From assembly GCA_958296105.1 (NCBI GenBank), contig OY282441.1:2687800-2751799 (forward strand): a DNA stretch of 64,000 bases, written 5' to 3'. Shown piece after piece: positions 2,003-53,301 of this stretch. Every line of letters starts with the position of its first letter. Within the stretch, counting starts at the first letter, position 1. The notes below the pieces were generated by a model. That model searched no databases. It was not told where the DNA came from and was given only the letters and a program-made list of their open reading frames with translations. The translations under genes were made by a program, and so were the position numbers. Source of the DNA: an uncultured Dehalococcoidia bacterium. GTDB taxonomy: Bacteria; Chloroflexota; Dehalococcoidia; Lucifugimonadales; UBA1123.

Positions 2003-2258
2003 GGAACTCCCCCGAATCAGGCGTTCGTCTACATCCGCTCCGAGTTTTCACAGCCCCCTGTTTCGATAATCGCAGCCCGAACAGCGCCGCTGATCGACCT
2101 CCGAACAGTGACGGATATGATAACTCGCTCGCGCCATGAAGTCATCAGGGGACTTGGTCGCCACACGACACTAAACTTTTATGTGATTTCGTTATAGAAT
2201 ATGCGCACACTCGCCGAACCCTTGAAGATCGGCGCTGATGGCGATGGGAGCGGACACT

Positions 2259-2912
2259 GTGGAGTATCAGATAGACGGCAACCCAGACTACGGTCATCTG
2301 AAAGTCGATCTCGACCTCGGCGACAGATTCATCGCAGAGGGCGGATCCATGGCGTGGATGTCGGACGGCATACAGGTCAACGGCCGACTTCTCGGCGGCT
2401 TCCTGCCCGCCCTGATCAGAAAACTGGTCGGCGGCGAATCGCTGTTCGTGGGCGAGTACAGCCACCCCATCGGCGGGCAGGTGACGTTCTCGCCCTCTGC
2501 GCCGGGAACGATCGTCTATCAGCGTCTCTCCGGCTCCTCTCTCGTCCTGACGGGCGGATCGTTCATGGCGTGTTCGCCCGGCATCCGCTTGAAGACGAGG
2601 TTCGGCGGGCTGCGCTCGATGTTCTCGGGCGAAGGGCTTTTCGTAATAGAGTGCAGCGGACACGGCGACCTGTTCTTCAACACCTTCGGCGCGCTGATCG
2701 AGAGAGACCTGGACGGCGAGCTGACCGTCGACACCGGACACGTGGTCGCGTGGGAGCCGACGCTTCAGTACCGAATACAGAGCATGGGCGGGCTGAAGAG
2801 CACGCTGCTTTCGGGCGAGGGGCTGGCAATGCGCTTCTCGGGCAGCGGCAAGATATATCTTCAGACACGCACCATGAGTTCACTGGCGAGCTGGCTGACG
2901 CCATTCGGCTGA
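2259..2912 (+). CDS. AIM24 family protein (TIGR00266/DUF124), copy 1
   Basis: First of three consecutive genes for proteins of about 220 residues with the same plan: an N-terminal EYQI..P.Y..L.VDLDLG segment, a glycine-rich strand pattern, and a C-terminal VDTGHVVAWEPTLQY motif. This is the AIM24/TIGR00266 beta-sandwich family, whose role is poorly known. The GTG at 2259 is preferred because it has a GGGAG site and aligns with the start of copy 3; an ATG at 2238 in the same frame would add seven residues. No signal peptide is seen. The three copies are in one probable operon and are clearly diverged, so the duplications are old. Confidence 0.88.
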   Translation: MEYQIDGNPDYGHLKVDLDLGDRFIAEGGSMAWMSDGIQVNGRLLGGFLPALIRKLVGGESLFVGEYSHPIGGQVTFSPSAPGTIVYQRLSGSSLVLTGGSFMACSPGIRLKTRFGGLRSMFSGEGLFVIECSGHGDLFFNTFGALIERDLDGELTVDTGHVVAWEPTLQYRIQSMGGLKSTLLSGEGLAMRFSGSGKIYLQTRTMSSLASWLTPFG

Positions 2913-2934
2913 GCCGACGGAAGGGGCGAAGATC

Positions 2935-3621
2935 ATGGCCAATTACACCATGTCGGATCGAGGCTCGTATGGCTCGGTGATCGTGGAGCTGGACGCCGGC
3001 GAGAGGTTCGTATCGGAATCGGGCGCGATGTTCCGCGCCTCGGACAACGTCGAAATCGACGTGACCACCAGATCTCGCGGCGGCGGCGGGCTGATGAGCG
3101 GAGTCAGGCGGATGATCGCGGGAGAGAGCTTCTTCCTGTCCACCTACCGCACCAATGACGGCAGGGAGGGGCAGGTTGGCTTGGCGCCCACGCTTGCGGG
3201 CGATGTGACTGTCATAGACTGCTCTGGCGCTCGGCGCTGGCTGTGCGCCGGCGGCAGCTTCCTGGGCGCTTCCGGCGGCCTCACCCTCGATACCCAGTTT
3301 CAGGGCATCAGGGGCATGTTCTCGGGGGAATCACTCTCGTTCTTGGCAGTCGAGGGACGGGGAGAGCTGCTCGTGAACGCCTTCGGCAGCATACAGGAGA
3401 TAGACGTGGACGGCGCCCTAACCGTCGATACTGGACACGTGGTCGCATTCGAGGAGACCCTCGAATACTCGATGGACAGGGCGGGGAGCAGCTGGATACA
3501 GTCGTTCCTCGCCAGCGAGGGGGTCGTGCTGAATTTCAGAGGACACGGCAGGCTGTACGTTCAGAGTCACAATCCGAGTGAGTTCGGCAGAAGACTGGGC
3601 GGGATGCTGCCGCCAAGGTGA
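2935..3621 (+). CDS. AIM24 family protein (TIGR00266/DUF124), copy 2
   Basis: A 228-residue paralogue of its two neighbours. The conserved landmarks are RMIAGESFFLSTY, LTLDTQFQGIRGMFSGE and TVDTGHVVAFEETLEY. It starts 22 bases after copy 1 and ends 7 bases before copy 3, which suggests one transcript. It is the most divergent of the three, with an R/G-rich insert (SRGGGGLMSG) near residue 50. Three different paralogues kept side by side suggest a hetero-oligomer rather than gene dosage; this is inference. Confidence 0.87.
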   Translation: MANYTMSDRGSYGSVIVELDAGERFVSESGAMFRASDNVEIDVTTRSRGGGGLMSGVRRMIAGESFFLSTYRTNDGREGQVGLAPTLAGDVTVIDCSGARRWLCAGGSFLGASGGLTLDTQFQGIRGMFSGESLSFLAVEGRGELLVNAFGSIQEIDVDGALTVDTGHVVAFEETLEYSMDRAGSSWIQSFLASEGVVLNFRGHGRLYVQSHNPSEFGRRLGGMLPPR

Positions 3622-3628
3622 GGTCTAC

Positions 3629-4294
3629 ATGGAGTACGCTATTCAGAGCCAGCCGAGTTACAGCCTGCTAGAGGTGACGCTCGACCCCGGCCAGTCCATC
3701 GTCGCCGAAGCGGGCGCAATGACATGGATGACCGACGCCATCCGAATGACCACCTCCACACGCGGCGGCGCGCTGAGCGGGCTGAGGCGATCCGTCCTCG
3801 GCGGGGAGAGCTTCTTCCAGAACACATACGAAGCCGAGAGCGCGCCCGGAGTCGTGGGACTCGCGCCCGGACAGCCCGGAGATATCGTCATGCGCCGCAT
3901 GGATGGCCAAGACCTCATGCTGGAGAAGAACGCATATCTGGCATCGGAACCGGGCGTGCAGGTCGATTCCAACTTCCAGGGACTTCGCGGCCTGTTCAAC
4001 GAGGGTCTGTTCGTGCTGCGCGCCTCCGGCATAGGCAGCCTGTTCTTCAACTCATACGGCGACGTCACCGAGATAGACGTCGATGGCTCGTACGTAGTAG
4101 ACAACGGCCACGCCGTCGCCTGGGAGCCAACGCTCGACTACCGCATCACCAGGGGGCGGTCGATCCGCTCGTTCCTGTTCTCGGATCAGCTGCTGCTGCG
4201 CTTCACGGGTCGGGGCAAGCTGTGGGTGCAGTCGCGCAATCCCCAATCGCTGGCGAGCTGGGTCTTCCCCTTCCGCCCCACGCGGAGCGGCTAG
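3629..4294 (+). CDS. AIM24 family protein (TIGR00266/DUF124), copy 3
   Basis: A 221-residue paralogue. The start at 3629 (MEYAIQSQPSY) is chosen over an upstream in-frame ATG inside copy 2, because a GGTGAGG site precedes it and its N terminus matches copy 1. Conserved blocks include VLGGESFFQNTYEA, VDSNFQGLRGLF and VVDNGHAVAWEPTLDY. It converges on the FMN-dependent dehydrogenase gene with only 19 bases between the two stops. Confidence 0.88.
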   Translation: MEYAIQSQPSYSLLEVTLDPGQSIVAEAGAMTWMTDAIRMTTSTRGGALSGLRRSVLGGESFFQNTYEAESAPGVVGLAPGQPGDIVMRRMDGQDLMLEKNAYLASEPGVQVDSNFQGLRGLFNEGLFVLRASGIGSLFFNSYGDVTEIDVDGSYVVDNGHAVAWEPTLDYRITRGRSIRSFLFSDQLLLRFTGRGKLWVQSRNPQSLASWVFPFRPTRSG

Positions 4295-4313: not shown

Positions 4314-5423
4314 TTACGCCCTCGCGCTTCTGGTACGGAAGTCCGAGCCGAGCGATACCAAGCCGCGGTGAATGTCGCTTACGCTGCGGCAGCCGCAGTA
4401 TGCCATCGCGCGGTCGAACTCGGCGCGCATGATGTCCAGCATCTTCTCCACGCCAGCCTGCCCGCCGTTGGCAAGGCCCCAGAAGAGAGGTCGGCCGACG
4501 AAGACGCCTCGCGCCCCCAGCGCGATCGCCTTGAGCGCGTCCATTCCGCGCCGAACGCCCGAGTCGAGATACACCTCCAGGCTGTCGCCAACCGCGTCGG
4601 CGATCTCGGGCAGAGTCTCGACACTCGCCCTCGTGCAGTCCAGCTGTCTGCCGCCGTGATTAGAAACCACTATGGCGTCCGCCCCGTACTCGGCGCACGC
4701 CACCGCGTCTTCGAGCGTTCGGATGCCCTTGATGACCAGCGGAAGGCCGGTCAGGTCGCGCAGCCAGTCGAGCCGCTCCCATGTCAGCCCCGTGTAGCGC
4801 GGCGGCTGCCAGTCCATCATGTCCGGAATGCCCACGCTGCGCCGCACGATCAGATCGCTGCGGTCTTCCGGTCGAAGCAGACTGCCCCAGTACATGCCGG
4901 GCGTGGGCCTGTGATCGTTGCGAACGTCGCGCTCCTTGGGGCTGGGGCTTGGAGTGTCCACGGTCAGGCAGATCGCCTTGTAGCCGGCGGCCTTCGCGCG
5001 AGTCACCAGAAGCTCCGTCACCTCGTCGTCGAAGTGGTACAGCTGGAACCACAGCGGCCCGCTGGCGACCTCTGCAACCTCCTCTATCGAGTAGCCGGAG
5101 CCTGTGGGCAGCGCGTACAGCGTCCCCATCCTGCCCGCGGCGGCGGCGGTGGCGCGCTCGCCGTCGGGGTGAACGTCGCGCTGGCTGCCCGCTGGCGCGA
5201 CCATTACGGGAAAGTCTATCTTCTCCCCGAGAACCTCGATGGATGAGTCTCTGTTTCCCACGTCCACTAGGAATCTGGGATTCACCGTAATCTCATCGAA
5301 GGCTTCGCGGTTTCGGCGCACCGTAATCTCATCCGCTGCGCCCGCGTCCACGAACGTCCACTTGTGATGTGGCATGACCTGTTCCGCCATAGCTTCGAGA
5401 TCGAATAGGGACACTGGATTCAT
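4314..5423 (-). CDS. FMN-dependent alpha-hydroxy-acid dehydrogenase/oxidase
   Basis: This 369-residue TIM-barrel flavoprotein belongs to the glycolate oxidase / lactate dehydrogenase / lactate 2-monooxygenase family. The N terminus has LFDLEAMAEQVMPHHKWTFVDAGAADE; FMN-contact segments include VMVAPAGSQ and VIKGI; the active-site block SNHGGRQLD places the proton-accepting His at about residue 256 and the substrate-binding Arg at 259. GARGVFVGRPLFWGLA is the phosphate-binding loop. The reaction is oxidation of a 2-hydroxy acid to the 2-oxo acid; the electron acceptor and exact substrate are not predictable. A promoter lies upstream at 5457-5485. Confidence 0.93.
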   Translation of the reverse strand: MNPVSLFDLEAMAEQVMPHHKWTFVDAGAADEITVRRNREAFDEITVNPRFLVDVGNRDSSIEVLGEKIDFPVMVAPAGSQRDVHPDGERATAAAAGRMGTLYALPTGSGYSIEEVAEVASGPLWFQLYHFDDEVTELLVTRAKAAGYKAICLTVDTPSPSPKERDVRNDHRPTPGMYWGSLLRPEDRSDLIVRRSVGIPDMMDWQPPRYTGLTWERLDWLRDLTGLPLVIKGIRTLEDAVACAEYGADAIVVSNHGGRQLDCTRASVETLPEIADAVGDSLEVYLDSGVRRGMDALKAIALGARGVFVGRPLFWGLANGGQAGVEKMLDIMRAEFDRAMAYCGCRSVSDIHRGLVSLGSDFRTRSARA

Positions 5424-6748: not shown

Positions 6749-6779
6749 GGCGTGTTTGCCTCCTTGCAATTGTCCGCGC

Positions 6780-7136
6780 TCAGCCGATTCTCGTCAGCCG
6801 CTCTATCAGCTCCTTGGCGTCGTATATGCCCCCCTCGACCGACTTTTCCGGGAGCCAGTCCTCGTAGAAGTTGGTGTGCAGCATTCCCACGCTTCTGTAC
6901 AGGGTGTGGATCCTCCAAGGGTCGTCCGACTCGTCTGCCAGCCGGTCCACGATTATGCCCAGAGCGCCGTGCGTTCCGTGGCTCCATCCCCGCCGCTCTG
7001 CGATGGACTTCAGGCAGTGCGCCGCCGCTCCCCACGCCTTTTCGGACGCCTGCAGCAGGTCGCCCTCGCGGAACATGTTCTCTGCGTGGTGGAGAAAGTC
7101 GGCGCTTACCTCCGTGTGTCTCTCTACTGTCGCCAT
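6780..7136 (-). CDS. PaREP1-family (HEPN-like) protein, array copy 1
   Basis: A 118-residue, all-helical protein. The core reads EGDLLQASEKAWGAAAHCLKSIAERRGWSHG, then a DRLADES helix, then SVGMLHTNFYEDWL and KELIERL. This pattern (GDxxQAxEKxWGAAA, W.H..H, LH.NFYE) matches PaREP1 proteins, small helical proteins first seen as a repeated family in Pyrobaculum and structurally close to HEPN. This is the last copy of five on the minus strand, 31 bases before DUF1501. It alone has DPWRIHTL and a Tyr in GGIYDAKEL. The start is fixed by GGAGGG upstream. Function unknown. Confidence 0.82.
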   Translation of the reverse strand: MATVERHTEVSADFLHHAENMFREGDLLQASEKAWGAAAHCLKSIAERRGWSHGTHGALGIIVDRLADESDDPWRIHTLYRSVGMLHTNFYEDWLPEKSVEGGIYDAKELIERLTRIG

Positions 7137-7177
7137 GCGATCTACACCCTCCTTGCAATTGTCCGCGCTCAGCGCGC

Positions 7178-7534
7178 TCAGCCGATTCTCGTCAGCCGCT
7201 CTATCAGCTCCTTGGCGTCGTCTATGCCCCACTCGACGGACTTTTCCGAGAGCCAGTCCTCGTAGAAGTTGGTGTGCAGCATTCCCACGCTTCTGTACAG
7301 ATTGCGAACTCTCCGAGGGTCGTCCGATTCGTCTGCCAGCCGGAGTACGATTATGCTCAGAGCGCCGTGCGATCCGTGGCTCCATCCCCGCCGCTCTGCG
7401 ATGGACTTCAGGCAGTGCGCCGCCGCTCCCCACGCCTTTTCGGACGCCTGCAGCAGGTCGCCCGCGCGGAACATGTTCTCCGCGTGGTGGAGAAAGTCGG
7501 CGCTTATCTCCGTGTGTCTCTCTACTGTCGCCAT
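7178..7534 (-). CDS. PaREP1-family (HEPN-like) protein, array copy 2
   Basis: 118 residues, near-identical to its neighbours. Diagnostic differences are FRAGDLL (Ala for Glu), GSHGALSIIVLRL, RRVRNL and VEWGIDDAKEL. The middle segment matches copy 4, while the C-terminal EKSV...AKEL matches copy 1, so the copy is a mosaic. The leader ends GAGGGTGTAG then ATCGC before the ATG; GTG-TAG in it is a remnant of the NHL gene's last codons. Confidence 0.82.
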   Translation of the reverse strand: MATVERHTEISADFLHHAENMFRAGDLLQASEKAWGAAAHCLKSIAERRGWSHGSHGALSIIVLRLADESDDPRRVRNLYRSVGMLHTNFYEDWLSEKSVEWGIDDAKELIERLTRIG

Positions 7535-7566
7535 GCGATCTACACCCTCTGAGCAGTTGTCCGCCC

Positions 7567-7923
7567 TCAGCCGATTCTCGTTAGCCGCTCTATCAGCTCT
7601 CTGGCGTCGTCTATGCCCCCCTCGACCAACTTTCCCGGGATCCAGTCCTCGTAGAAGTTGGTGTGCAGCATTCCCACGCTTCTGTACAGGTTGTGTATTC
7701 TCCGAGGGTCGTCCGATTCGTCTGCCAGCCGGTCTACGACTATGCCCAGAGCGCCGTGCGTTCCGTGGCTCCATCCCCGCCGCTCTGCGATGGACTTCAG
7801 GCAGTGCGCCGCCGCTCCCCACGCCTTTTCGGACGCCTGCAGCAGGTCGCCCTCGCGGAACATGCTCTCTGCGTGGTGGAGAAAGTCGGCGCTTATCTCC
7901 GTGTGTCTCTCTACTGTCGCCAT
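7567..7923 (-). CDS. PaREP1-family (HEPN-like) protein, array copy 3
   Basis: 118 residues. It shares the GTHGALGI.VDRL and RRIHNL middle segment with copy 1, but GKLVEGGIDDAREL with copy 4. It alone has HHAESMF and EDWIPGKL. The leader is the hybrid type GCAAGGAGGGTGTAG also seen before copy 1. Intact, with the same family signature residues as the others. Confidence 0.82.
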   Translation of the reverse strand: MATVERHTEISADFLHHAESMFREGDLLQASEKAWGAAAHCLKSIAERRGWSHGTHGALGIVVDRLADESDDPRRIHNLYRSVGMLHTNFYEDWIPGKLVEGGIDDARELIERLTRIG

Positions 7924-7964
7924 GCGATCTACACCCTCCTTGCGATTGTCCTCGCTCAGCGCGC

Positions 7965-8321
7965 TCAGCCGATTCTCGTCAGCCGCTCTATCAGCTCCCT
8001 GGCGTCGTCTATGCCCTCCTCGACCAACTTTCCCGGGAGCCAGTCCTCGTAGAAGTTGGTGTGCAGCATTCCCACGCTTCTGTACAGATTGCGAACTCTC
8101 CGAGGGTCGTCCGATTCGTCTGCCAGCCGGAGTACGATTATGCCCAGAGCGCCGTGCGATCCGTGGCTCCATCCCCGCCGCTCTGCAATGGACTTCAGGC
8201 AGTGCGCCGCCGCTCCCCACGCCTTTTCGGACGCCTGCAGCAGGTCGCCCTCGCGGAACATATTCTCCGCGTGGTGGAGAAAGTCGGCGCTTATCTCCGT
8301 GTGTCTCTCTACTGTTGCCAT
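7965..8321 (-). CDS. PaREP1-family (HEPN-like) protein, array copy 4
   Basis: 118 residues. The middle segment GSHGALGIIVLRL with RRVRNL matches copy 2; the C-terminal GKLVEEGIDDAREL matches copy 3. The leader has one substitution (ATCAC in place of ATCGC before the ATG) and is of the CTCAGAGGGTG type. No frameshift or stop. Confidence 0.82.
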   Translation of the reverse strand: MATVERHTEISADFLHHAENMFREGDLLQASEKAWGAAAHCLKSIAERRGWSHGSHGALGIIVLRLADESDDPRRVRNLYRSVGMLHTNFYEDWLPGKLVEEGIDDARELIERLTRIG

Positions 8322-8353
8322 GTGATCTACACCCTCTGAGCGATTGTCCACCC

Positions 8354-8710
8354 TCAGCCGATTCTCGTCAGCCGCTCTATCAGCTCCCTGGCGTCGTCTA
8401 TGCCCCCCTCGACGGACTTTTCCGAGAGCCAGTTCTCGTGGAAGTTGGTGTGCAGCATTCCCACGCTTCTGTACAGGGTGCGAACTCTCCGAGGGTCGTC
8501 CGACTCGTCTGCGAGTCGGTCCGCGATTATGCTCAGAGCGCCGTGCGATCCGTGGCTCCATCCCCGCCGCTCTGCGATGGACTTCAGGCAGTGCGCCGCC
8601 GCTCCCCACGCCTTTTCGGACGCCTGCAACAGGTCGCCCTCGCGGAACATGTTCTCTGCGTGGTGGAGAAAGTCGGCGCTTATGTCCGCGTGTCTCTCTA
8701 CTGTCGCCAT
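8354..8710 (-). CDS. PaREP1-family (HEPN-like) protein, array copy 5
   Basis: 118 residues and the first copy in transcription order, only five bases after the NHL-repeat gene stop. It is the most distinct copy (ERHADISADF, IIADRL, NFHENWLSEKS) and is the likely founder, because its ribosome binding site lies inside the authentic end of the NHL gene, whereas the other copies carry a duplicated fragment of that end. Confidence 0.82.
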   Translation of the reverse strand: MATVERHADISADFLHHAENMFREGDLLQASEKAWGAAAHCLKSIAERRGWSHGSHGALSIIADRLADESDDPRRVRTLYRSVGMLHTNFHENWLSEKSVEGGIDDARELIERLTRIG

Positions 8711-8715
8711 GCGAT

Positions 8716-9726
8716 CTACACCCTCTGATAGACTTGGAAGCGGTGGCGGCCTGTCTCCAGTACGTAGACGCGCTCCTGAGCGTCCAGCGCGACCCGGACC
8801 GGATCCCAGAAGTACGGCTCGATTCTGGCGGAGACCTCGCCGGGATCGTCCGTATCCGTCTCGAAGACGGGGACGAACCTGGAGCGCGCGTCCAGCTCGT
8901 CGGCGTTGGCGTTGAGGTACTCCACCGCCCATTCGCCTAGAATCGCGTCTCCCCTGAGCTGGGTCAGGAATCTGCCGTCTCGGTCGAGAACCTGCACCCG
9001 CTGGTTCATCCAGTCGGCTATGTACATGTTGCCGTCCGAATCCACCGCCAGCCCGGACGGGCGGCTGAGCTGTCCTTCGCCTCGCCCCGATTCGCCGAAC
9101 TTGGCTACGAACTCGCCGTCTGGGGTGAACTTCTGTATACGGTCGTTGCGCCAGTCGGCCACGTACAGGAAGCCCTCGTCGTCGCTGGAGATGCCCCAAG
9201 GCAGGTTCAGCTCCCCGTCGCCGCTGCCGAACGCCCCCCACTTGGAGACGAACCGGCCGTCCTTCGTGAACTTCTGAACGCGGTGGTTGCGGTGATCGAC
9301 GAGCAGCAGGTCGTCGTTCGCGTCGAACAGCAGGCCGGATACGCCGTCGAACTCGCCGTCGCCACTGCCCTTCGTCCCCCACGTCGCGCTCACGCCGCCC
9401 TCGCGGTCGTACACCGTAACCCGCTGTAGGAAGTCGTCTGCCAGATAGAGGTTGTCTTGGCTGTCGAGCGCGAGCGCGGACGGCCAGATCATCTGGCCCG
9501 GCGCCTGGCCGTGCGAACCGAGCTGGCCAAAGAACTGGTGGTCGATGGTCGCCATCTGGATGCCCACGATGTCCAGAGCGTTCATGTTGCTTCGGCTGGC
9601 GACGAATATGCGCCCGTCTCCGCGAATGGCGAAGTCCGTCGGCAGGTGGAAGCCGCGCCCCCCTTGGTCGGCAACGAATCCGACTGTGGTGACCGGCTCC
9701 AGCTGAAAGGCTGTCGATGTTGTCAT
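8716..9726 (-). CDS. NHL-repeat beta-propeller protein
   Basis: A 336-residue protein with at least four NHL blades, each of the form (Y/L)VADWRNDRIQKFTPDGEFVAKFG, at about residues 75-110, 125-160, 170-205 and 215-255. NHL propellers bind ligands or act as scaffolds; some are lyases, but the catalytic residues of peptidylglycine lyases are not evident. No signal peptide was found. It sits 85 bases after DUF1800 and 5 bases before the PaREP1 array, so it belongs to that operon. Its function in the cluster is unknown. Confidence 0.85.
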   Translation of the reverse strand: MTTSTAFQLEPVTTVGFVADQGGRGFHLPTDFAIRGDGRIFVASRSNMNALDIVGIQMATIDHQFFGQLGSHGQAPGQMIWPSALALDSQDNLYLADDFLQRVTVYDREGGVSATWGTKGSGDGEFDGVSGLLFDANDDLLLVDHRNHRVQKFTKDGRFVSKWGAFGSGDGELNLPWGISSDDEGFLYVADWRNDRIQKFTPDGEFVAKFGESGRGEGQLSRPSGLAVDSDGNMYIADWMNQRVQVLDRDGRFLTQLRGDAILGEWAVEYLNANADELDARSRFVPVFETDTDDPGEVSARIEPYFWDPVRVALDAQERVYVLETGRHRFQVYQRV

Positions 9727-9811: not shown

Positions 9812-11254
9812 TCAGACCATCTGGTACTCCTGCGTCGTCACGATCAGCTGGATGAGCGTCACCGCGCGCCTGTCGCCCTCCTCGCTCGGCAGGGTCGTGT
9901 CTCCCCACTTCTCCGCATACTCGATCAGCCCGTCTCTGGTCGAATCGAGAACCGGAAGCGGGCCGAGCGCATCGAGGCAGGCGTCCACGAGCCTTTGCGG
10001 AGACAGCGCCATGCCGTATGCGCCGTCCGCCATACGGTCTATGATGGCGCGTATGCCCGGCTTGTTCGGATCGTTGAGAACGCGGCTGGCGAAGTTGACG
10101 CGCTGGACGTATGCGCCGGTGTTTATCCATTCGCTCCCGCCCTGCCAGCCCTCCACGCTCGGCGGCGCCAGAAGGCCCTGACCCATAGCGGCGCACGCTC
10201 CGGCAGCGGCGTAGGTGTCCGTCGAGGGCAGGTCTATCGGGCCTGCGAGCCGCATCGTTCCCACGACCATCTCCGCCGGACTCTTGATCCGCGCGAACCG
10301 AGACGCCTCGGACTTGAAGAAGTCGGAGTTGAACATAGCCCTGAGCATGGCGGAAATCTGGAAGCCAGAGTCGAAGTACGCCTGCGCCATGATCTCTATG
10401 GCTTCCGGGTCTCTGGGTCCGAAGTGCGGCCACTGCGGCACGGGCAGCTCGTCCGCCACGAAGAAGTGATACAGATGCCGAGCGATGAATCGCGCCGTGG
10501 CGGGCTGGCGACAGATGATGTCCACCACGTCCTCGCCGTTGAAGTCGCCGACCTCGCCGAGGAAACGCTTCTCCTCGTGATCGTGGTCATCGTCGTCGTA
10601 CTCGAACTGCCACGCGATATAGCCGTATGGCCTAGCGGTGTTGTTGCGCATCTTGATCGACATGTAATCGGGGTTGACCACGCGCCAGCCCGTGAAGGCG
10701 CGCGCGCACTCCTTGATGTCGTCCTCGGTGTAGTTGCCGACTCCCATCGAGAACAGCTCGAGTATCTCGCGCCCGTAGTTCTCGTTGATCGAGTCTTTGT
10801 GATTGTCCTGATTGTCCAGCCACATCAGCATGGCGGGATCTCGGGACAGCCGAGCCAGTATGTCCCTGAAGCTGCCCATGCCGTACTGCCTGAACATTTC
10901 GACTTGGTTGACCACCATGCGCGCCTGTATCAGCTTGGTGGACGCAGTGGCGAAGATGCGGTGCCAGAAAAGACACATCTTCTCTCTGAGAACCGCGTCG
11001 GTGTTGACCATCCGGTAAACCCAGTGGGCAGCAGCCGCGCCGCCGTTTCGCAGATCTGACTGGTCCACGTGGTAGCGGCGGATCAGGTCCTCGGGCATCT
11101 CGCAGTCGGACGCGGGATTCAGCAGCCCCTCTACGGCGGCCTCGTATCCCATCTCCATGAAGCGGTCCAGCTCGTCCGGGGTTGCGCCGAATCCGGCTCG
11201 CCTGAGCAGATGCGCCATCAGCGCAACATCTTGCCTCTCTTGGACAGTCGTCAT
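9812..11254 (-). CDS. DUF1800 domain-containing protein
   Basis: A 480-residue protein that starts (ATG 11254, behind AAGGAGA) with MAHLLRRAGFGATPDELDRFMEMGYEAAVEGLLNP, the diagnostic opening of DUF1800. Further family blocks are MCLFWHRIFATAST, NENYGREILELFSMGVGNYTEDDIKECARAFTGW, FLGEVGDFNGEDVVDIIC and FLAPPSVEGWQGG-type LLAPPSVEGWQGG near residue 375. DUF1800 proteins are of unknown activity and usually travel with DUF1501 proteins, as here. It is the first gene of the 11.3-5.6 kb minus-strand run and has its own promoter. Confidence 0.92.
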   Translation of the reverse strand: MTTVQERQDVALMAHLLRRAGFGATPDELDRFMEMGYEAAVEGLLNPASDCEMPEDLIRRYHVDQSDLRNGGAAAAHWVYRMVNTDAVLREKMCLFWHRIFATASTKLIQARMVVNQVEMFRQYGMGSFRDILARLSRDPAMLMWLDNQDNHKDSINENYGREILELFSMGVGNYTEDDIKECARAFTGWRVVNPDYMSIKMRNNTARPYGYIAWQFEYDDDDHDHEEKRFLGEVGDFNGEDVVDIICRQPATARFIARHLYHFFVADELPVPQWPHFGPRDPEAIEIMAQAYFDSGFQISAMLRAMFNSDFFKSEASRFARIKSPAEMVVGTMRLAGPIDLPSTDTYAAAGACAAMGQGLLAPPSVEGWQGGSEWINTGAYVQRVNFASRVLNDPNKPGIRAIIDRMADGAYGMALSPQRLVDACLDALGPLPVLDSTRDGLIEYAEKWGDTTLPSEEGDRRAVTLIQLIVTTQEYQMV

Positions 11255-11288
11255 ACTGATTCTCCTTGCCATATTCGAGTTCGCCATG

Positions 11289-21745: not shown

Positions 21746-22492
21746 ATGACCACGCCAGCAAGAGCCACACGCGCGCCCGAACAGACCAGACGGCCGTACA
21801 CCGTACTGCCCGACCCGCCGGAACAGACCGATATGACTCAGCACAAGTACATAACCGACGCCGATACCACTCTCAGGACGCACTACAGGGGCCGCTCGGA
21901 CGTCTACGTCGATGGAGAGGGCTACCTGTGCTACGACACCAGCGACCTCACCCTGGTGCCGGACTGCGTGGTCGCCTTCGGAGTGGACGCCGAGGCGGTT
22001 GACGACGCCAACGGATACACGATCAGCGAAGTGGGAAAGCCTCCGGACTTCGTACTGGAAGTCGCGTCTCCGTCGACGGGCAGACGTGACTACACGGAGA
22101 AGCGAGTTGGCTACGAGCGTCTGAGGGTCCGAGAGTACTGGCGGTTCGACTACACGGGAGGAGACTACCACGACAGACCGTTGGCCGGGGACATTCTGGT
22201 GGACGGCAGATACGAGGAGATAGCTCTGCGCGAGGAGTCGGACGGGATGATCTGGGGTCACAGCCCAGCGCTGGGCTTGGACTTGTGCTGGGACGATGGA
22301 CGCCTGCGCTTCTACGATCCAGCGACTGGGGAGTACCTGCGCAGCCACTGGGAATCGGAAGCCGACCGCGAAGCCGCCGAAGCCAGGGCTGACGCCGCAG
22401 AGTTCAGGGCAGACTTCGCCGAAGCGAGGGCCGACGTCGCCGAGGCAGAGAATCGACGTCTTCGAGAGCTGCTGAGACGGCTGGAGGGTTGA
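21746..22492 (+). CDS. Uma2-family putative endonuclease, tandem copy 1
   Basis: A 248-residue Uma2 protein (PD-(D/E)XK-like fold). Candidate active-site blocks are TLVPDCVVAFGVD (Asp about 72) and DFVLEVASPSTGRRD (Glu about 104). A C-terminal coiled coil has 7-residue repeats (AEARADAAEFRADF) and ends ENRRLRELLRRLEG. Uma2 proteins are widespread in cyanobacteria and Chloroflexota, with unclear roles. The start follows GGAGTGAGG. It is intact. Confidence 0.85.
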   Translation: MTTPARATRAPEQTRRPYTVLPDPPEQTDMTQHKYITDADTTLRTHYRGRSDVYVDGEGYLCYDTSDLTLVPDCVVAFGVDAEAVDDANGYTISEVGKPPDFVLEVASPSTGRRDYTEKRVGYERLRVREYWRFDYTGGDYHDRPLAGDILVDGRYEEIALREESDGMIWGHSPALGLDLCWDDGRLRFYDPATGEYLRSHWESEADREAAEARADAAEFRADFAEARADVAEAENRRLRELLRRLEG

Positions 22493-22612
22493 GACATCTC
22501 CGAATCCAACACGGCGCGGCGCGTGACCGATCTCTAGCCGATCTCGTCCGCGCAGAATCCCCCCGCCCGCTGTGATACCATGTCATTATCGACAAGCGGA
22601 GTGAGGCAGCAA

Positions 22613-23338
22613 ATGACCACGCCAGCAAGAGCCACACGCGCGCCCGAACAGACCAGACGGCCGTACACCGTACTGCCCGACCCGCCGGAACAGACCGACA
22701 TGACTCAGCACAAGTACATAACCGACGCCGACACCACTCTCAGGACGCACTACAGGGGCCGCTCGGACGTGTACGTCGACGGAGAGGGCTACCTGTGCTA
22801 CGACACCAGCGATCTCACCCTGGTGCCGGACTGCGTGGTGGCCTTCGGAGTGGACGCCGAGGCGGTTGACGACGCCAACGGATACACGATCAGCGAAGTG
22901 GGAAAGCCGCCTGACTTCGTGCTGGAAGTCGCGTCTCCATCGACGGGCAGACGTGACTACACGGAGAAGCGAGTTGGCTACGAGCGTCTGAGGGTCCGAG
23001 AGTACTGGCGGTTCGACTACACGGGAGGAGACTACCACGACAGGCCGTTGGCTGGGGACATTCTAGTGAACGGCAGATACGAGGAGATAGCCCTGCGCGA
23101 GGAGTCGAACGGGATGATCTGGGGTCACAGCCCATCGCTGGGCTTGGACTTGTGCTGGGACGATGGACGCCTGCGCTTCTACGATCCGGTGGCAGGGGAG
23201 TATCTGCGCAGCCATTGGGAATCGGAAGCCGACCGCGAAGCCGCCGAAGCCAAGGCTGACGCCGCCGAGGCTAGGGCAGCAGCATCTGAAGCAGAGAATC
23301 GACGTCTTCGAGAGCTGCTGAGACGGCTGGAGGGTTGA
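22613..23338 (+). CDS. Uma2-family putative endonuclease, tandem copy 2
   Basis: 241 residues, almost identical to copy 1 over the nuclease-like domain. Changes include VNGRYEEI, ESNGMIW and HSPSLG. The coiled coil is shorter by exactly seven residues (AEAKADAAEARAAASEAEN). The leader repeats copy 1's leader, including GGAGTGAGG and a remnant of the end of the FAD oxidoreductase gene. Confidence 0.85.
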   Translation: MTTPARATRAPEQTRRPYTVLPDPPEQTDMTQHKYITDADTTLRTHYRGRSDVYVDGEGYLCYDTSDLTLVPDCVVAFGVDAEAVDDANGYTISEVGKPPDFVLEVASPSTGRRDYTEKRVGYERLRVREYWRFDYTGGDYHDRPLAGDILVNGRYEEIALREESNGMIWGHSPSLGLDLCWDDGRLRFYDPVAGEYLRSHWESEADREAAEAKADAAEARAAASEAENRRLRELLRRLEG

Positions 23339-23459
23339 GACATCCCCGAATCCAACCCGGCGCGGCGTGTGACCGATCTCTAGCCGCTCTCGCCCGCGCA
23401 GAATCCCCCCGCCCGCTGTGATACCATCTCTATTACCGAAAAGCGGAGTGAGGCAGCAA

Positions 23460-24248
23460 ATGACCACGCCAGCAAGAGCCACACGCGCGCGCGAACAGAC
23501 CAGACGGCCGTACACCGTACTGCCCGACCCGCCGGAACAGACCGATATGATTCAGCACAAGTACATAACCGACGCCGACACCACTCTCAGGACGCGCTAC
23601 AGGGGCCGCTCGGACGTGTACGTCGATGGAGAGGGCTACCTGTGCTACGACACCAGCGATCTCACCCTGGTGCCGGACTGCATGGTGGCCTTCGGAGTGG
23701 ACGCCGAGGCGGTTGACGACGCCAACGGATACATGATCAGCGAAGTGGGAAAGCCGCCGGACTTCGTACTGGAAGTCGCGTCTCCATCGACGGGCAGACG
23801 TGACTACACGGAGAAGCGGGTTGGCTACGAGCGTCTGAGGGTTCGAGAGTACTGGCGGTTCGACTACACGGGAGGAGACTACCACGACAGGCCGTTGGCT
23901 GGGGACATTCTGGTGGACGGCAGATACGAGGAGATAGCTCTGCGCGAGGAGTCCGACGGGATGATCTGGGGTCACAGCCCAGCGCTGGGCTTGGACTTGT
24001 GCTGGGACGATGGACGCCTGCGCTTCTACGATCCAGCGACTGGAGAGTATCTGCGCAGCCACTGGGAATCGGAAGCCGACCGCGAAGCCGCCGAAGCGAG
24101 GGCTGACGCCGCCGAGTTCAGGGCAGACTTCGCCGAAGCTAGGGCTGGGTCCGCCGAGTTCAGGGCCGAAGCCGCCGAAGCTAGGGCCGAAGCCGCCGAG
24201 ACGGAGAATCGGCGTCTTCGAGAGCTGCTGAGACGGCTGGAGATGTGA
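23460..24248 (+). CDS. Uma2-family putative endonuclease, tandem copy 3
   Basis: 262 residues. The nuclease-like domain is near-identical to copies 1 and 2 (differences ARATRAREQ, TDMIQHK, CMVAFG, GYMISE). The coiled coil is longer than copy 1 by exactly 14 residues (extra AGSAEFRAEAAEARAEAAE). The protein ends RRLEM. It is the last copy, 38 bases before the convergent ruvX stop. Confidence 0.85.
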   Translation: MTTPARATRAREQTRRPYTVLPDPPEQTDMIQHKYITDADTTLRTRYRGRSDVYVDGEGYLCYDTSDLTLVPDCMVAFGVDAEAVDDANGYMISEVGKPPDFVLEVASPSTGRRDYTEKRVGYERLRVREYWRFDYTGGDYHDRPLAGDILVDGRYEEIALREESDGMIWGHSPALGLDLCWDDGRLRFYDPATGEYLRSHWESEADREAAEARADAAEFRADFAEARAGSAEFRAEAAEARAEAAETENRRLRELLRRLEM

Positions 24249-49611: not shown

Positions 49612-50493
49612 ATGACGAACGCACCCGAAGGGATGATAGGCAAATACCGAATCATCGAGAATCTGGCGTCCGGCAGCCAGGGTTCGGTCCATCGCGCGCG
49701 AGACCCCGAGCTGAAGCGCGAGGTGGCGCTGAAAGTCCTGCTTCCGGATCGGGCCGCGCCCGAATTCGTCCAGCGCTTCGAGTGTGAAGCGCAGCTCGTC
49801 GCCTCCATCGACCACCCGAACGTAGCCAAAATCTTCGAGATTGGCGAGCATGGCGGCTTGCCCGTCATAGTCATGGAGTACGTCCCGCACACGCTCGAAC
49901 ATCTCGTGGAGAAGCGGAGGCGGCTGGACGCGGCGCTCGCCGTCTCCATAGCGCGTCAGGCAGCCGCCGCGCTCGAAGCCGCTCGAACGAGAGGCATCAC
50001 CCACCACGATATCAAGCCGGACAACCTGCTGCTGACCTCGCTGGATGCGGACTGCGAGGTCAAGCTAATAGACTTCGGGATTGCCCACGCCGCTGGCATG
50101 GCGTCCATGACTCAGGCGGACTCGTGGACGGGCCCGCCGCTCTACATGCCGACGGAGCAGTGGAACAACGAGCGCGGCGACACGCGCTCGGACGTATACT
50201 CGCTGGGCATCGTCATGTACCAGATGCTTTCCGGGCAGCTGCCGTTCGATTCGGACGCCGCCAACAGTATCGTCTGGCAGAACGATATTATGCGTAAGCA
50301 CATGGAGGCGACGCCTGCATCTCTGCGCGCTCTGCGCGAGGACGTCCCCGAATACCTCGATGCGCTGGTGGCGAAGTGCATGGCGAAGGATCCCGAAGAC
50401 CGTTATCAGACGCCGGGCGAGCTTGCGCGCGCGCTGCTCGGAGTACTCGAACTTTCCATCTGCCAAAAAATCGCGCAGCTGCCGCGCAAGTGA
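49612..50493 (+). CDS. Ser/Thr protein kinase, domain-only truncated copy
   Basis: A 293-residue kinase domain without a membrane segment. It has GSQGSVHRARD (glycine loop), EVALKVL (ATP Lys), [12 protein letters not shown] (catalytic Asp with HHD in place of HRD) and LIDFGIAH. The activation segment reads GPPLYMPTEQ, with PTE in place of the PPE seen in kinase 2, a weakened APE motif. After GELARA the sequence leaves the kinase 2 pattern and ends in an unrelated 20-residue tail. It looks like the product of a 1.09-kb tandem duplication and may be soluble or non-functional. Confidence 0.85.
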   Translation: MTNAPEGMIGKYRIIENLASGSQGSVHRARDPELKREVALKVLLPDRAAPEFVQRFECEAQLVASIDHPNVAKIFEIGEHGGLPVIVMEYVPHTLEHLVEKRRRLDAALAVSIARQAAAALEAARTRGITHHDIKPDNLLLTSLDADCEVKLIDFGIAHAAGMASMTQADSWTGPPLYMPTEQWNNERGDTRSDVYSLGIVMYQMLSGQLPFDSDAANSIVWQNDIMRKHMEATPASLRALREDVPEYLDALVAKCMAKDPEDRYQTPGELARALLGVLELSICQKIAQLPRK

Positions 50494-50693
50494 ACGACTG
50501 GATGATAGCCGCCATCCTCGACAGGAGGGCGAAATCTCTGAAGAAGGTCGCCAGCGAGCTGGTCGAATCCGCCAAGCGCGCGGGCGGCACGGACAACATA
50601 ACCGTCGTCGTGGCGCGGATGGACTCGCGCGCCACGACGCGCCAAACCCAGAGCGCAGTCGACAGGCTCGGCGTCACCCTGCCGCCATGTTAG
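50494..50693 (+). pseudogene. Duplicated C-terminal fragment of the PP2C gene
   Basis: From 50494 the sequence matches the PP2C gene from 49405, offset 1089 bases, and encodes its last 66 residues (DWMIAAILDRRAKSL to GVTLPPC). It has no start codon or ribosome site of its own. It ends eight bases before kinase 2 and carries the ribosome binding site for it. Confidence 0.9.
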
Positions 50694-50700
50694 GAGAGCC

Positions 50701-53301
50701 ATGACGAACGCACCCGAAGGGATGATCGGCAAATACCGAATCATCGAGAATCTGGCGTCCGGCAGCCAGGGTTCGGTCTATCGCGCGCACGACCCCGAGC
50801 TGGATCGAGAGGTGGCGCTGAAAGTCCTGCATCCGCATCTGGCTACGCCCGAAGTCATCCAGCGCTTCAGGCGCGAGGCGCAGCTCGTCGCATCCATCCC
50901 CCACCGAAACATAGCCAGCATCAGCGAGATTGGCGAGCATGACGGCTCGCACTTCATAGTCATAGAGTACGTCCCGCACACGACCGGCCAGCTCGTGGAG
51001 CGGGGACCGCTGGACGTGGCGCTCGCCGTCTCCATAGCGCATCAGGCAGCCGCCGCGCTCGAAGCCGCTCGAACGAGCAGGCGCGGCATCACCCACCACG
51101 ATATCAAGCCGGACAACCTGCTGCTGACCTCGCTGGATGCGGACTGCGAGGTCAAGCTCATCGACTTCGGAATTGCCCACGCCGCGGACATGGCGCCCAT
51201 GACTCAGGCAGGCGCCAAGTGGGGAACGCCGTTCTACATGCCGCCGGAGCAGTGGAACGGCGAGCGCGGCGACACGCGCTCGGACGTATACTCGCTGGGC
51301 ATCGTCATGTACCAGATGCTTTCGGGGCAGGTGCCGTTCGATTCGGACGCCGCCAACAATCTCGTCCAGCAGAACGATATTGCGCGTCAGCACCTCGAGG
51401 CGATACCCGTATCTCTGCGCACTCTGCGCGAGGACGTCCCAGAAGACCTCGAGGCGGTGGTGACGAAGTGCATGGCGAAGGCGCCCGAAGACCGCTATCA
51501 GACGCCGGGCGAGCTTGCGCGCATTCTGGAGGACATGTTCGGAATAGCCGCTCCCAGCGCGGTTCGGCTCGGTTCTCGTCCGCCTGTGCGGATAAGCGAT
51601 CCGCCGAAACCTCCCAGTCCCATCCTCCAAAGAATCGCGCTTCTGCGCAATCGGCTGCCCCTGCTCGCGGCTGGCGCATTCGGGGCGGTGGTCACGATTT
51701 TGCTAATCGTGATCATGGCTTCGCAGGCAGGCGACGCCCCCTCCGAGCCTACGCTGCCCCGCCTTGCCACGCCCACGCCGTCCGACACTCGGGCTTTCGT
51801 CCCCCCGCCCCCTATCGTCTCGACCCCAACGAACACGCCCCCGCCCACGCCAGAGCCTACGACGCCTCCCGTTTCGACGCCCACGCCATATCCCATACAG
51901 CCGACCTACACGCCATTGCCCACCAATACGCCAAGAGCCGCGCCCGTTGCCCTAACTGCAAACGCGCCGGAGCCGACTTTCACCCCCACCTCGACCCACT
52001 CGCCCACCCCCACGCCCAAACCCGCCGCTGCCAACACGCCCACCGCCACGCCAACGCCTGCGCCCACTGAGACGCCAACTCCAACTCCAACCCCAACGCT
52101 CGCGCCCACCGCGACGCCGACTCCGACCCAGACGCCGACTCCAACCCAGACTCCAACGCCAACGTTCACGCCCACCGCGACGCCGACCCCAACCCCAACG
52201 CCAATCCCGGCAATCCCGAATCTGCTGGTCGAAACGGTGACCGTCTCCCCCGAGACCTACACCGTCTGGGATGAATTGAGCTTCACCGCTCGCGTCGGCA
52301 ACTCGGGAACGGCCTCAGCCGAAAAGATCACCGTTGGGCTGTACAACAGCAGCAGCGACGAGGTTCTGGCCGAGCGCACGATCAGAAGTCTAAGGCCCGG
52401 CGGTGTGGAGGACGTCACCCTCGTATGGCGCGCAGAGTCCAAGCCGCGCTCGCTCAGCGTGATCGTGGACAGAGACGACCAGATCGTGGAGTTCGAGGAA
52501 GGCGACAACTCTTCTTCGGCTCTGAGCATAGTGCCGCGCACCCCGCCCTATCGCGTGGGCGACATCACGTGGGATCCGAGAAAGCCCCACCTCTACGATA
52601 GGGTGTCGTTCTGGGCGCATATCGGCAACAGCGCAGATCGGCGCGTGGAGTACGAGGCTGGGGTCGCGTTCTACCTGAACGGTGAGGATATCGGCTGGTC
52701 GGAGCTGAGCAGCTTGGGATCCAAGGCATCCAAGCAGGTGGAATCCCATTCATGGGAGGCGCTGAATGGCGAGTACGAGGTGACCGCCGCGATCTATCCG
52801 CTGCGCTATCTCGACTACCGCGAGAACCCGTCGTGGAACACGCTGGACGAGAGATACGCCATCGCCGTATCTCACGCGATCTACAGCGACACCCTCTTGC
52901 CGAATCTCGTGGTTTCGTATGTGGACATATCCGAAAGGAGAGTGGCGAACAGCGATACTCTGTATCTGAGCTTGGAGATCGAGGTCTCCAACGAAATAGA
53001 CGAGAAGGGAAATCGTCCCACGCCCGTAAATCGTTCGTTCGACGTCAGAGTCGAATTGGAGAGTGGCCGCGCCTGTCCGTGGACGCTGAGCCCATGCGCC
53101 TTCACGCTGAAGTTCGACGGGCTTCGCGGCGGCTCGGCGTCGACCCGCAAGGTGGAAGGCTCAGTGGCTTTGCCAATTCCCAGAGGTAGCGCGGTCGATG
53201 AGTACAACCTGCTGATCACGGTCGATCCGTCCAACGTGATCGTGGAGTCCGACGACGCGGACAACGTCAAGCGCAAGACGAAGCGGGTCAAAAGCAGCTG
53301 A
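50701..53301 (+). CDS. Transmembrane Ser/Thr protein kinase with CARDB-type extracellular domains
   Basis: An 866-residue PknB-like kinase. The kinase domain (1-275) has [38 protein letters not shown] and [11 protein letters not shown] membrane helix ([21 protein letters not shown], about 318-338) is followed by a Thr/Pro-rich spacer of about 160 residues with PTPTPT runs. Then come three CARDB-like beta domains ([22 protein letters not shown]..., [13 protein letters not shown]..., [15 protein letters not shown]...) to the end. It is likely a sensor of envelope signals. Intact, with all catalytic residues. Confidence 0.93.

Follow-up and report, generated by a model that had tools for sequence, protein, structure and literature searches.

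How does a small gene of the PaREP1 family come to stand five times in a row inside a bacterial operon, and what keeps the copies there? The array in question lies in a stretch of 64,000 nucleotides (nt) from an uncultured Dehalococcoidia bacterium (contig OY282441.1), here called the window, and consists of five intact 118-codon PaREP1 genes arranged head to tail on the minus strand at 6780-8710. We consider it probable that an itinerant PaREP1 gene encoding a protein of HEPN fold entered an older operon, that duplication resembling crossing-over raised it to five copies, and that the products, by inference, act as solitary dimers on RNA. The window array is one young case in a family that repeatedly makes such arrays.

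A five-gene array in an older operon

An earlier note on this DNA had described five tandem PaREP1 genes with start spacings alternating between 389 and 398 nt, and both observations are borne out. All five open reading frames (ORFs) are intact, Tandem Repeats Finder delimits the array at 6775-8725 (period 398, 5.0 copies, 92% matches), and the copies differ from one another at 12 to 25 of 357 nt. Spacers in transcription order measure 32, 41, 32 and 41 nt, and starts accordingly alternate between 398 and 389 nt. On the minus strand the genes follow one another as DUF1800, NHL, PaREP1 copies 5-4-3-2-1, DUF1501 and a flavin mononucleotide (FMN)-dependent dehydrogenase:

9812..11287 (-), DUF1800 protein, first gene of the host operon
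8716..9726 (-), NHL-repeat beta-propeller protein, immediately upstream of the array, its stop codon inside the copy 5 leader
8354..8710 (-), PaREP1 copy 5, first transcribed, 118 amino acids; the sole copy changed (Y91H) at a near-invariant position
8322..8353 (-), 32-nt spacer of the TCAGAGGGTGTAG type
7965..8321 (-), PaREP1 copy 4, 118 amino acids
7924..7964 (-), 41-nt spacer with AAGGAGG, resembling the leader of the DUF1501 gene
7567..7923 (-), PaREP1 copy 3, 118 amino acids
7535..7566 (-), 32-nt spacer of the TCAGAGGGTGTAG type
7178..7534 (-), PaREP1 copy 2, 118 amino acids
7137..7177 (-), 41-nt spacer with AAGGAGG
6780..7136 (-), PaREP1 copy 1, last transcribed, 118 amino acids
5618..6748 (-), DUF1501 protein, immediately downstream of the array
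4314..5423 (-), FMN-dependent dehydrogenase, downstream operon neighbour, conserved in the related genomes G002 and G003

The copies alternate in type as well as in spacing. Translations confirm the reported pairing of the middle segments, with VDRL and RIH common to copies 1 and 3 and VLRL and RVRNL common to copies 2 and 4; copy 5 has ADRL and RVRTL there. One spacer type precedes copies 1 and 3 and the other precedes copies 2 and 4, and this matched pairing of spacers and mid-coding differences fits duplication of a two-gene unit, upholding the proposal that the array grew by dimer duplication. The AAGGAGG of the 41-nt spacers sits in a segment that recurs as the DUF1501 leader (caattgcaaggagg), and the TCAGAGGGTGTAG of the 32-nt spacers is also found at the end of the NHL gene. 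The C-terminal part groups differently: copies 1 and 2 share EKS...K, copies 3 and 4 share GKL...R, and copy 5 has EKS...R. All seven sites that set copies 1 and 3 against 2 and 4 precede all four that set copies 1 and 2 against 3 and 4, an order with a chance of 1 in 330, or 1 in 84 after collapsing neighbouring sites, for a contrast picked after the data were seen. Because a general adjacency (recombination) test on the window array was not significant (P 0.185), a mosaic from exchange between copies is suggested and not proven; the earlier attribution to gene conversion or unequal crossing-over is thus favoured by the regrouping and the site order, but not by the general test.

The operon is found both with and without PaREP1. 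Three other genomes of the genus carry orthologues (NHL 79-80% and DUF1501 88-89% identical), and comparison of copy number at this site, as the earlier note had advised, gives 5, 1, 0 and 0 across the four genomes, with one PaREP1 gene in G002 (L048) and none in G001 (L104) or G003 (L105). The operon also lacks PaREP1 in the three other family members in which it was read, G005 (L106), G006 (L107) and G004 (L108), and in the paralogous operons L109 and L110; contigs shorter than 6 kilobases (kb) carry the operon in G005 and G006, and the DUF1800 genes of G006 and G004 are incomplete or split. PaREP1 is therefore an addition to an older conserved operon.

Spacer and site patterns together point to an order of events. 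An itinerant PaREP1 gene would have settled between NHL and DUF1501; its duplication with two distinct junctions, the 32-nt and 41-nt spacers, would have given three copies, and duplication of a two-gene unit would then have given five, as unequal crossing-over would leave. Short exchanges between neighbouring copies may have come afterwards. A mobile-element origin of the array was considered and rejected, as no inverted repeats occur in or around the array, and comparison by eye of the NHL-DUF1501 junctions, between genomes that have PaREP1 and genomes that lack it, showed no obvious common target duplication.

PaREP1 arrays recur within and beyond the genome

In the window's own genome, a single contig of 3.18 megabases (Mb), PaREP1 matches number 23 and fall at ten sites; six sites hold arrays, of 5, 5, 3, 2, 2 and 2 copies. 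The second five-gene array (L036, own genome 3147000-3159000; 5015-7145 of that locus, minus strand) stands inside a suf operon, with a SufB-type gene on one side and a DUF1643 gene, an ABC ATPase gene and a SufD-type gene on the other (suf letters were read from SUFBD_core and ABC_tran domains). The same suf gene is followed by a single PaREP1 gene in G001, and no PaREP1 match adjoins sufB in G002 or G003. A tree was built from 89 sequences after seven of 96 PaREP1 ORFs, each shorter than 95 amino acids, had been omitted; in it every array is monophyletic, and the single G001 gene comes out as sister to the suf array (support 100/98). The process proposed for the window has probably also produced the arrays at the five other own-genome sites and those at numerous loci of related genomes.

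PaREP1 genes neighbour suf, luciferase-like monooxygenase, coenzyme A (CoA)-transferase, aconitase, thiamine pyrophosphate (TPP)-enzyme and epimerase genes. A same-strand neighbour lies within 100 nt at 56 of 70 PaREP1 sites compared with 325 of 498 genes (P 0.014), and a same-strand upstream neighbour is present at 57 of 70 sites compared with 377 of 498 genes (P 0.37); genes at these loci were called by a simple codon-usage script trained on eight window genes, not by a standard gene finder. As PaREP1 sites are packed only a little more closely than ordinary genes, co-transcription with the host operon is likely and hardly special. PaREP1 would then be expressed with whichever operon carries it.

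Related genomes repeat this pattern on a larger scale. PaREP1 was found in 18 of the 60 relatives searched, and in 56 of 157 sampled genomes of the order compared with 12 of 301 sampled across the phylum (the window's genome is counted in each sample; in the phylum sample G000 was scored for 14 of 24 candidates). Relatives' records are from Dehalococcoidia and Chloroflexota, with two from Acidimicrobiaceae and one from a SAR202 bin; many such bins derive from marine sponges. Between 12 and 49 matches occur in each of seven further one-contig genomes, and among the matches listed for these and the window's own genome 97 of 173 PaREP1 genes stand in same-strand tandem arrays, a count that covers all but 44 of the 194 matches of the seven other genomes. 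Among called genes other than PaREP1 at the same loci, 308 same-strand pairs are adjacent, and 6 of these pairs reach 50% identity or more; 3 of the 6 lie in the window. In G133 (L175, 4023-7366, plus strand) six PaREP1 genes are spaced 580, 569, 506, 580 and 569 nt, indicating duplication of a three-gene unit, and five further copies have an exact 514-nt spacing; together with the window array, these show that the amplified unit can comprise one, two or three genes. Degenerate pieces also exist in relatives, one with stops (G001:C51) and short ones in L098 and L099. A viral origin is not favoured: a motif-pattern search of viral_contigs, which reaches motif-bearing sequences only, gave 30 pattern matches and none confirmed as relatives.

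In G115 (L184, 2989-3828, minus strand), one ORF contains two PaREP1-like domains by a custom profile, one of which passes in Pfam. Such an ORF would be a natural fused dimer.

Selection on the copies and the case for neutral amplification

The earlier note held that selection retains the copies because all stay open. Openness does not carry that claim, as five copies with this many changes remain open by chance with P ~0.16, but retention is favoured by where the changes fall and by constraint on the suf array. The 23 positions that vary among the window copies have a mean entropy of 2.58 bits in relatives, compared with 1.69 at the remaining 94 (P 1.7e-4), and of 28 conserved (low-entropy) columns a single one varies, by Y91H in copy 5. 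Avoidance of conserved positions recurs with 84 other sequences (P 7e-4) and, because the motif used to collect the relatives' alignment (A2) inflates conservation at positions 28-35, was recalculated with these dropped (P 0.0024). The suf array has reached a synonymous divergence (dS) of 0.64-1.65 with five copies intact and a ratio of nonsynonymous to synonymous change (dN/dS) of 0.15-0.30, so arrays can persist for long under purifying selection. Other arrays and pairs have dN/dS of 0.14-0.46, with pairs in other genomes at 0.14-0.21. On this sequence divergence we take the window array to be young and the suf array to be much older.

Several results weigh against our preferred explanation. 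The calculation of dN/dS between copies that had been proposed gives values below 1 in every window pair (0.33-0.85), but pooled values of 0.58-0.67 are not significantly below 1 (one-sided P 0.06-0.14), and the young window copies alone could therefore evolve almost neutrally. This genome is generally rich in tandem duplications, and PaREP1 need not be special. As to a shared insertion behind the window array and the G002 operon gene, the best trees join the G002 gene to suf-locus genes (support 96/80 and 85/79), with an approximately unbiased (AU) test giving p 0.086 against grouping it with the window copies.

Neutral or selfish amplification, in which a short unit multiplies in a recombination-prone genome and its copies persist awhile without benefit, would account for the pooled window ratio, for the roughly 16% chance that all copies remain open, for the degenerate pieces in relatives, and for the other tandem duplicates in the window (three Uma2 genes, two kinase genes) and the genome (an NTP_transf_2 triplet). 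We nevertheless judge it unlikely, given that changes avoid conserved residues, that the suf array keeps five intact copies to dS ~1 under a low dN/dS, and that pairs in other genomes are as constrained as stated above. In the explanation we prefer, arrays would be retained because several diverging subunits raise the dose and widen the range of homo- and heterodimers.

A predicted HEPN fold and no nearby antitoxin gene in this genome

All five window copies exceed the cut-off of the Pfam PaREP1 profile PF05942 (24.4 bits), with copy 1 at 56.4 bits and copy 5 at 57.9 bits. The HEPN profile PF05168 (cut-off 22) places copy 5 barely above (22.7 bits) and copy 1 below (19.8 bits). An AlphaFold2 model of copy 5 built from an alignment of 65 sequences has five helices and a mean predicted local distance difference test score (pLDDT) of 91.8. 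Its top Foldseek match is 2q00_A (E 1.6e-4, template modelling (TM) score 0.78), and direct comparison with 2q00 gives Z 15.6 and a root-mean-square deviation of 2.1 over 110 residues at 24-26% identity. The PaREP1/HEPN identity and the structure-prediction check put forward earlier therefore agree with the data: PF05942 is matched above cut-off, and the best solved matches are 2q00, which with 2jpu represents a solved PaREP1-type protein of Sulfolobus solfataricus and has the fold of the copy 5 model, and the HEPN-T protein AF0298 (2hsb; Z 16.9), which shares the helical HEPN fold. Profile and model together support the assignment of the window proteins as PaREP1 with a predicted HEPN fold.

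Residues A30, K33, W35, A37 and H87 are invariant in 60 relatives and kept by all five window copies; this alignment was gathered by the motif [LP]QASEK[AT]W, a choice that makes positions 28-35 look too conserved, and leaves out four of 64 loci (L112, L167, L171 and L174). Arg81 occupies the place of the HEPN arginine (R-x5-H, here R81-x5-H87). Both R81 and H87 are present in all five window copies, and among relatives H87 occurs in 60 of 60 and R81 in 11 of 60, in agreement with the description of Parep1/8, in the accessible portion of a HEPN review, as lacking the canonical R but retaining the H (PMC3710099).

These proteins could in principle be the toxin half of an MNT-HEPN toxin-antitoxin pair whose antitoxin has been lost or is borrowed. 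Their fold is akin to that of HEPN toxins (Z 8 to 10.5) and R81-x5-H87 is complete in every window copy, but R81 is kept in so few relatives that, unlike in MNT-HEPN toxins, the canonical R is not conserved, and no MNT partner is found in the window's own genome. There, the one genome for which the distance was computed, the nearest of 8 NTP_transf_2 matches is 27,887 base pairs from any of the 23 PaREP1 genes. Published surveys, so far as their accessible text goes, differ: one reports no MNT operon for paREP1 (PMC2701414), and a later one lists some paREP1 with MNT (PMC3710099). We rejected the pair for this genome, which has no nucleotidyltransferase gene within 27 kb of PaREP1, and hold the toxin idea as a whole to be quite improbable. 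We favour instead the inference that PaREP1 proteins are solitary HEPN-T dimers, putatively acting on RNA as ribonucleases or RNA binders without a nucleotidyltransferase partner.

A known defence system was likewise rejected: searched against PADLOC defence models, copies 1 and 5 gave no convincing match, only a weak one for copy 1 (E 0.047).

PaREP1 is not a fixed part of the DUF1800-NHL-DUF1501 operon

DUF1501 and DUF1800 have been published as an operon pair of bacteria (PMC5122149), and the earlier note had raised the prospect of a new system combining DUF1800, NHL and DUF1501 with PaREP1. PaREP1 would then be a working part whose dose is set by copy number, and it does adjoin four such operons: those of the window, G002 (L048) and G046 (L094, same order), and a second DUF1800-DUF1501-NHL operon in the own genome (L039, 106000-117000), which is followed by two PaREP1 genes. 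The operon is, however, kept without PaREP1 in G001, G003, G004, G005 and G006, and two paralogous operons also lack it; nor is the insert position constant, the single G046 gene standing between DUF1800 and NHL. PaREP1 also adjoins the suf and metabolic genes named above. The suggested co-occurrence check with DUF1501 is weak, with 3 neighbours seen and ~1.2 expected when the window locus is excluded (P 0.12, assuming the own genome's 9 DUF1501 genes per 3000 genes). We therefore find such a system very unlikely and the claim unsupported. An assembly artefact, of which no sign was seen, has next to no probability, with a genome of one 3.18-Mb contig, copies that differ mutually and comparable arrays in other assembled genomes.

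Relation to known PaREP1 families

The genes described here share a Pfam family (PF05942), and many copies per genome, with the Pyrobaculum repetitive families PaREP1/PaREP8 of archaea. Where accessible, the literature already notes tandem gene order for archaeal PaREP1 (PMC3710099, table) and describes insertion of PaREP1/PaREP8 in variable regions (PMC3710099, PMC3558965); PaREP1 is labelled archaeal in Pfam and, in the portion available, the HEPN review (PMC3710099). By contrast, the present genes are bacterial, lie within metabolic operons, number up to 49 matches per genome and form arrays built from alternating dimer or trimer units. Searchable literature, whose coverage is incomplete, yielded no description of a PaREP1 expansion in Chloroflexota. 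Tandem PaREP1 is thus known in archaea, and the large bacterial scale is the interesting part: a large family occupies iron-sulphur and metabolic operons, and more than half of its listed members stand in tandem arrays. The natural series of 5, 1, 0 and 0 copies at one site provides a direct route to asking what solitary HEPN proteins do.

Caenorhabditis paREP1/8 is an independent lineage-specific expansion of the same family, eukaryotic and of different architecture, which its authors, in the accessible section, likened to immunity-type expansions (PMC3710099). By analogy, Chloroflexota PaREP1 might be a repertoire of solitary HEPN-T proteins, diversified in arrays and, in conflicts with phages or other elements, targeting RNA, a speculative proposal that we think rather unlikely. 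Were it true, single genes would settle in metabolic and iron-sulphur operons and amplify by one-, two- and three-gene units, divergence would spare the conserved core, and host transcription would supply changing sets of homo- and heterodimers, resembling lineage-specific expansions of immune genes.

Other tandem genes in the window and genome

Three tandem Uma2-family (PF05685) genes at 21746-24248 on the plus strand of the window are ~97% identical over 300 nt, spaced 867 and 847 nt, with repeat-rich ends that vary in length. A tandem pair of Ser/Thr protein kinase genes lies at 49612-53301 (plus strand); stretches of 300 nt are 91-95% identical between them, and the second has an extra C-terminal region containing CARDB. 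Three consecutive genes at 2238-4294 (plus strand), the first of them AIM24 (PF01987), have 38-39% identity. Elsewhere in the genome, at 941877-943648, three NTP_transf_2 (PF01909) genes stand in tandem with 817-nt spacing.

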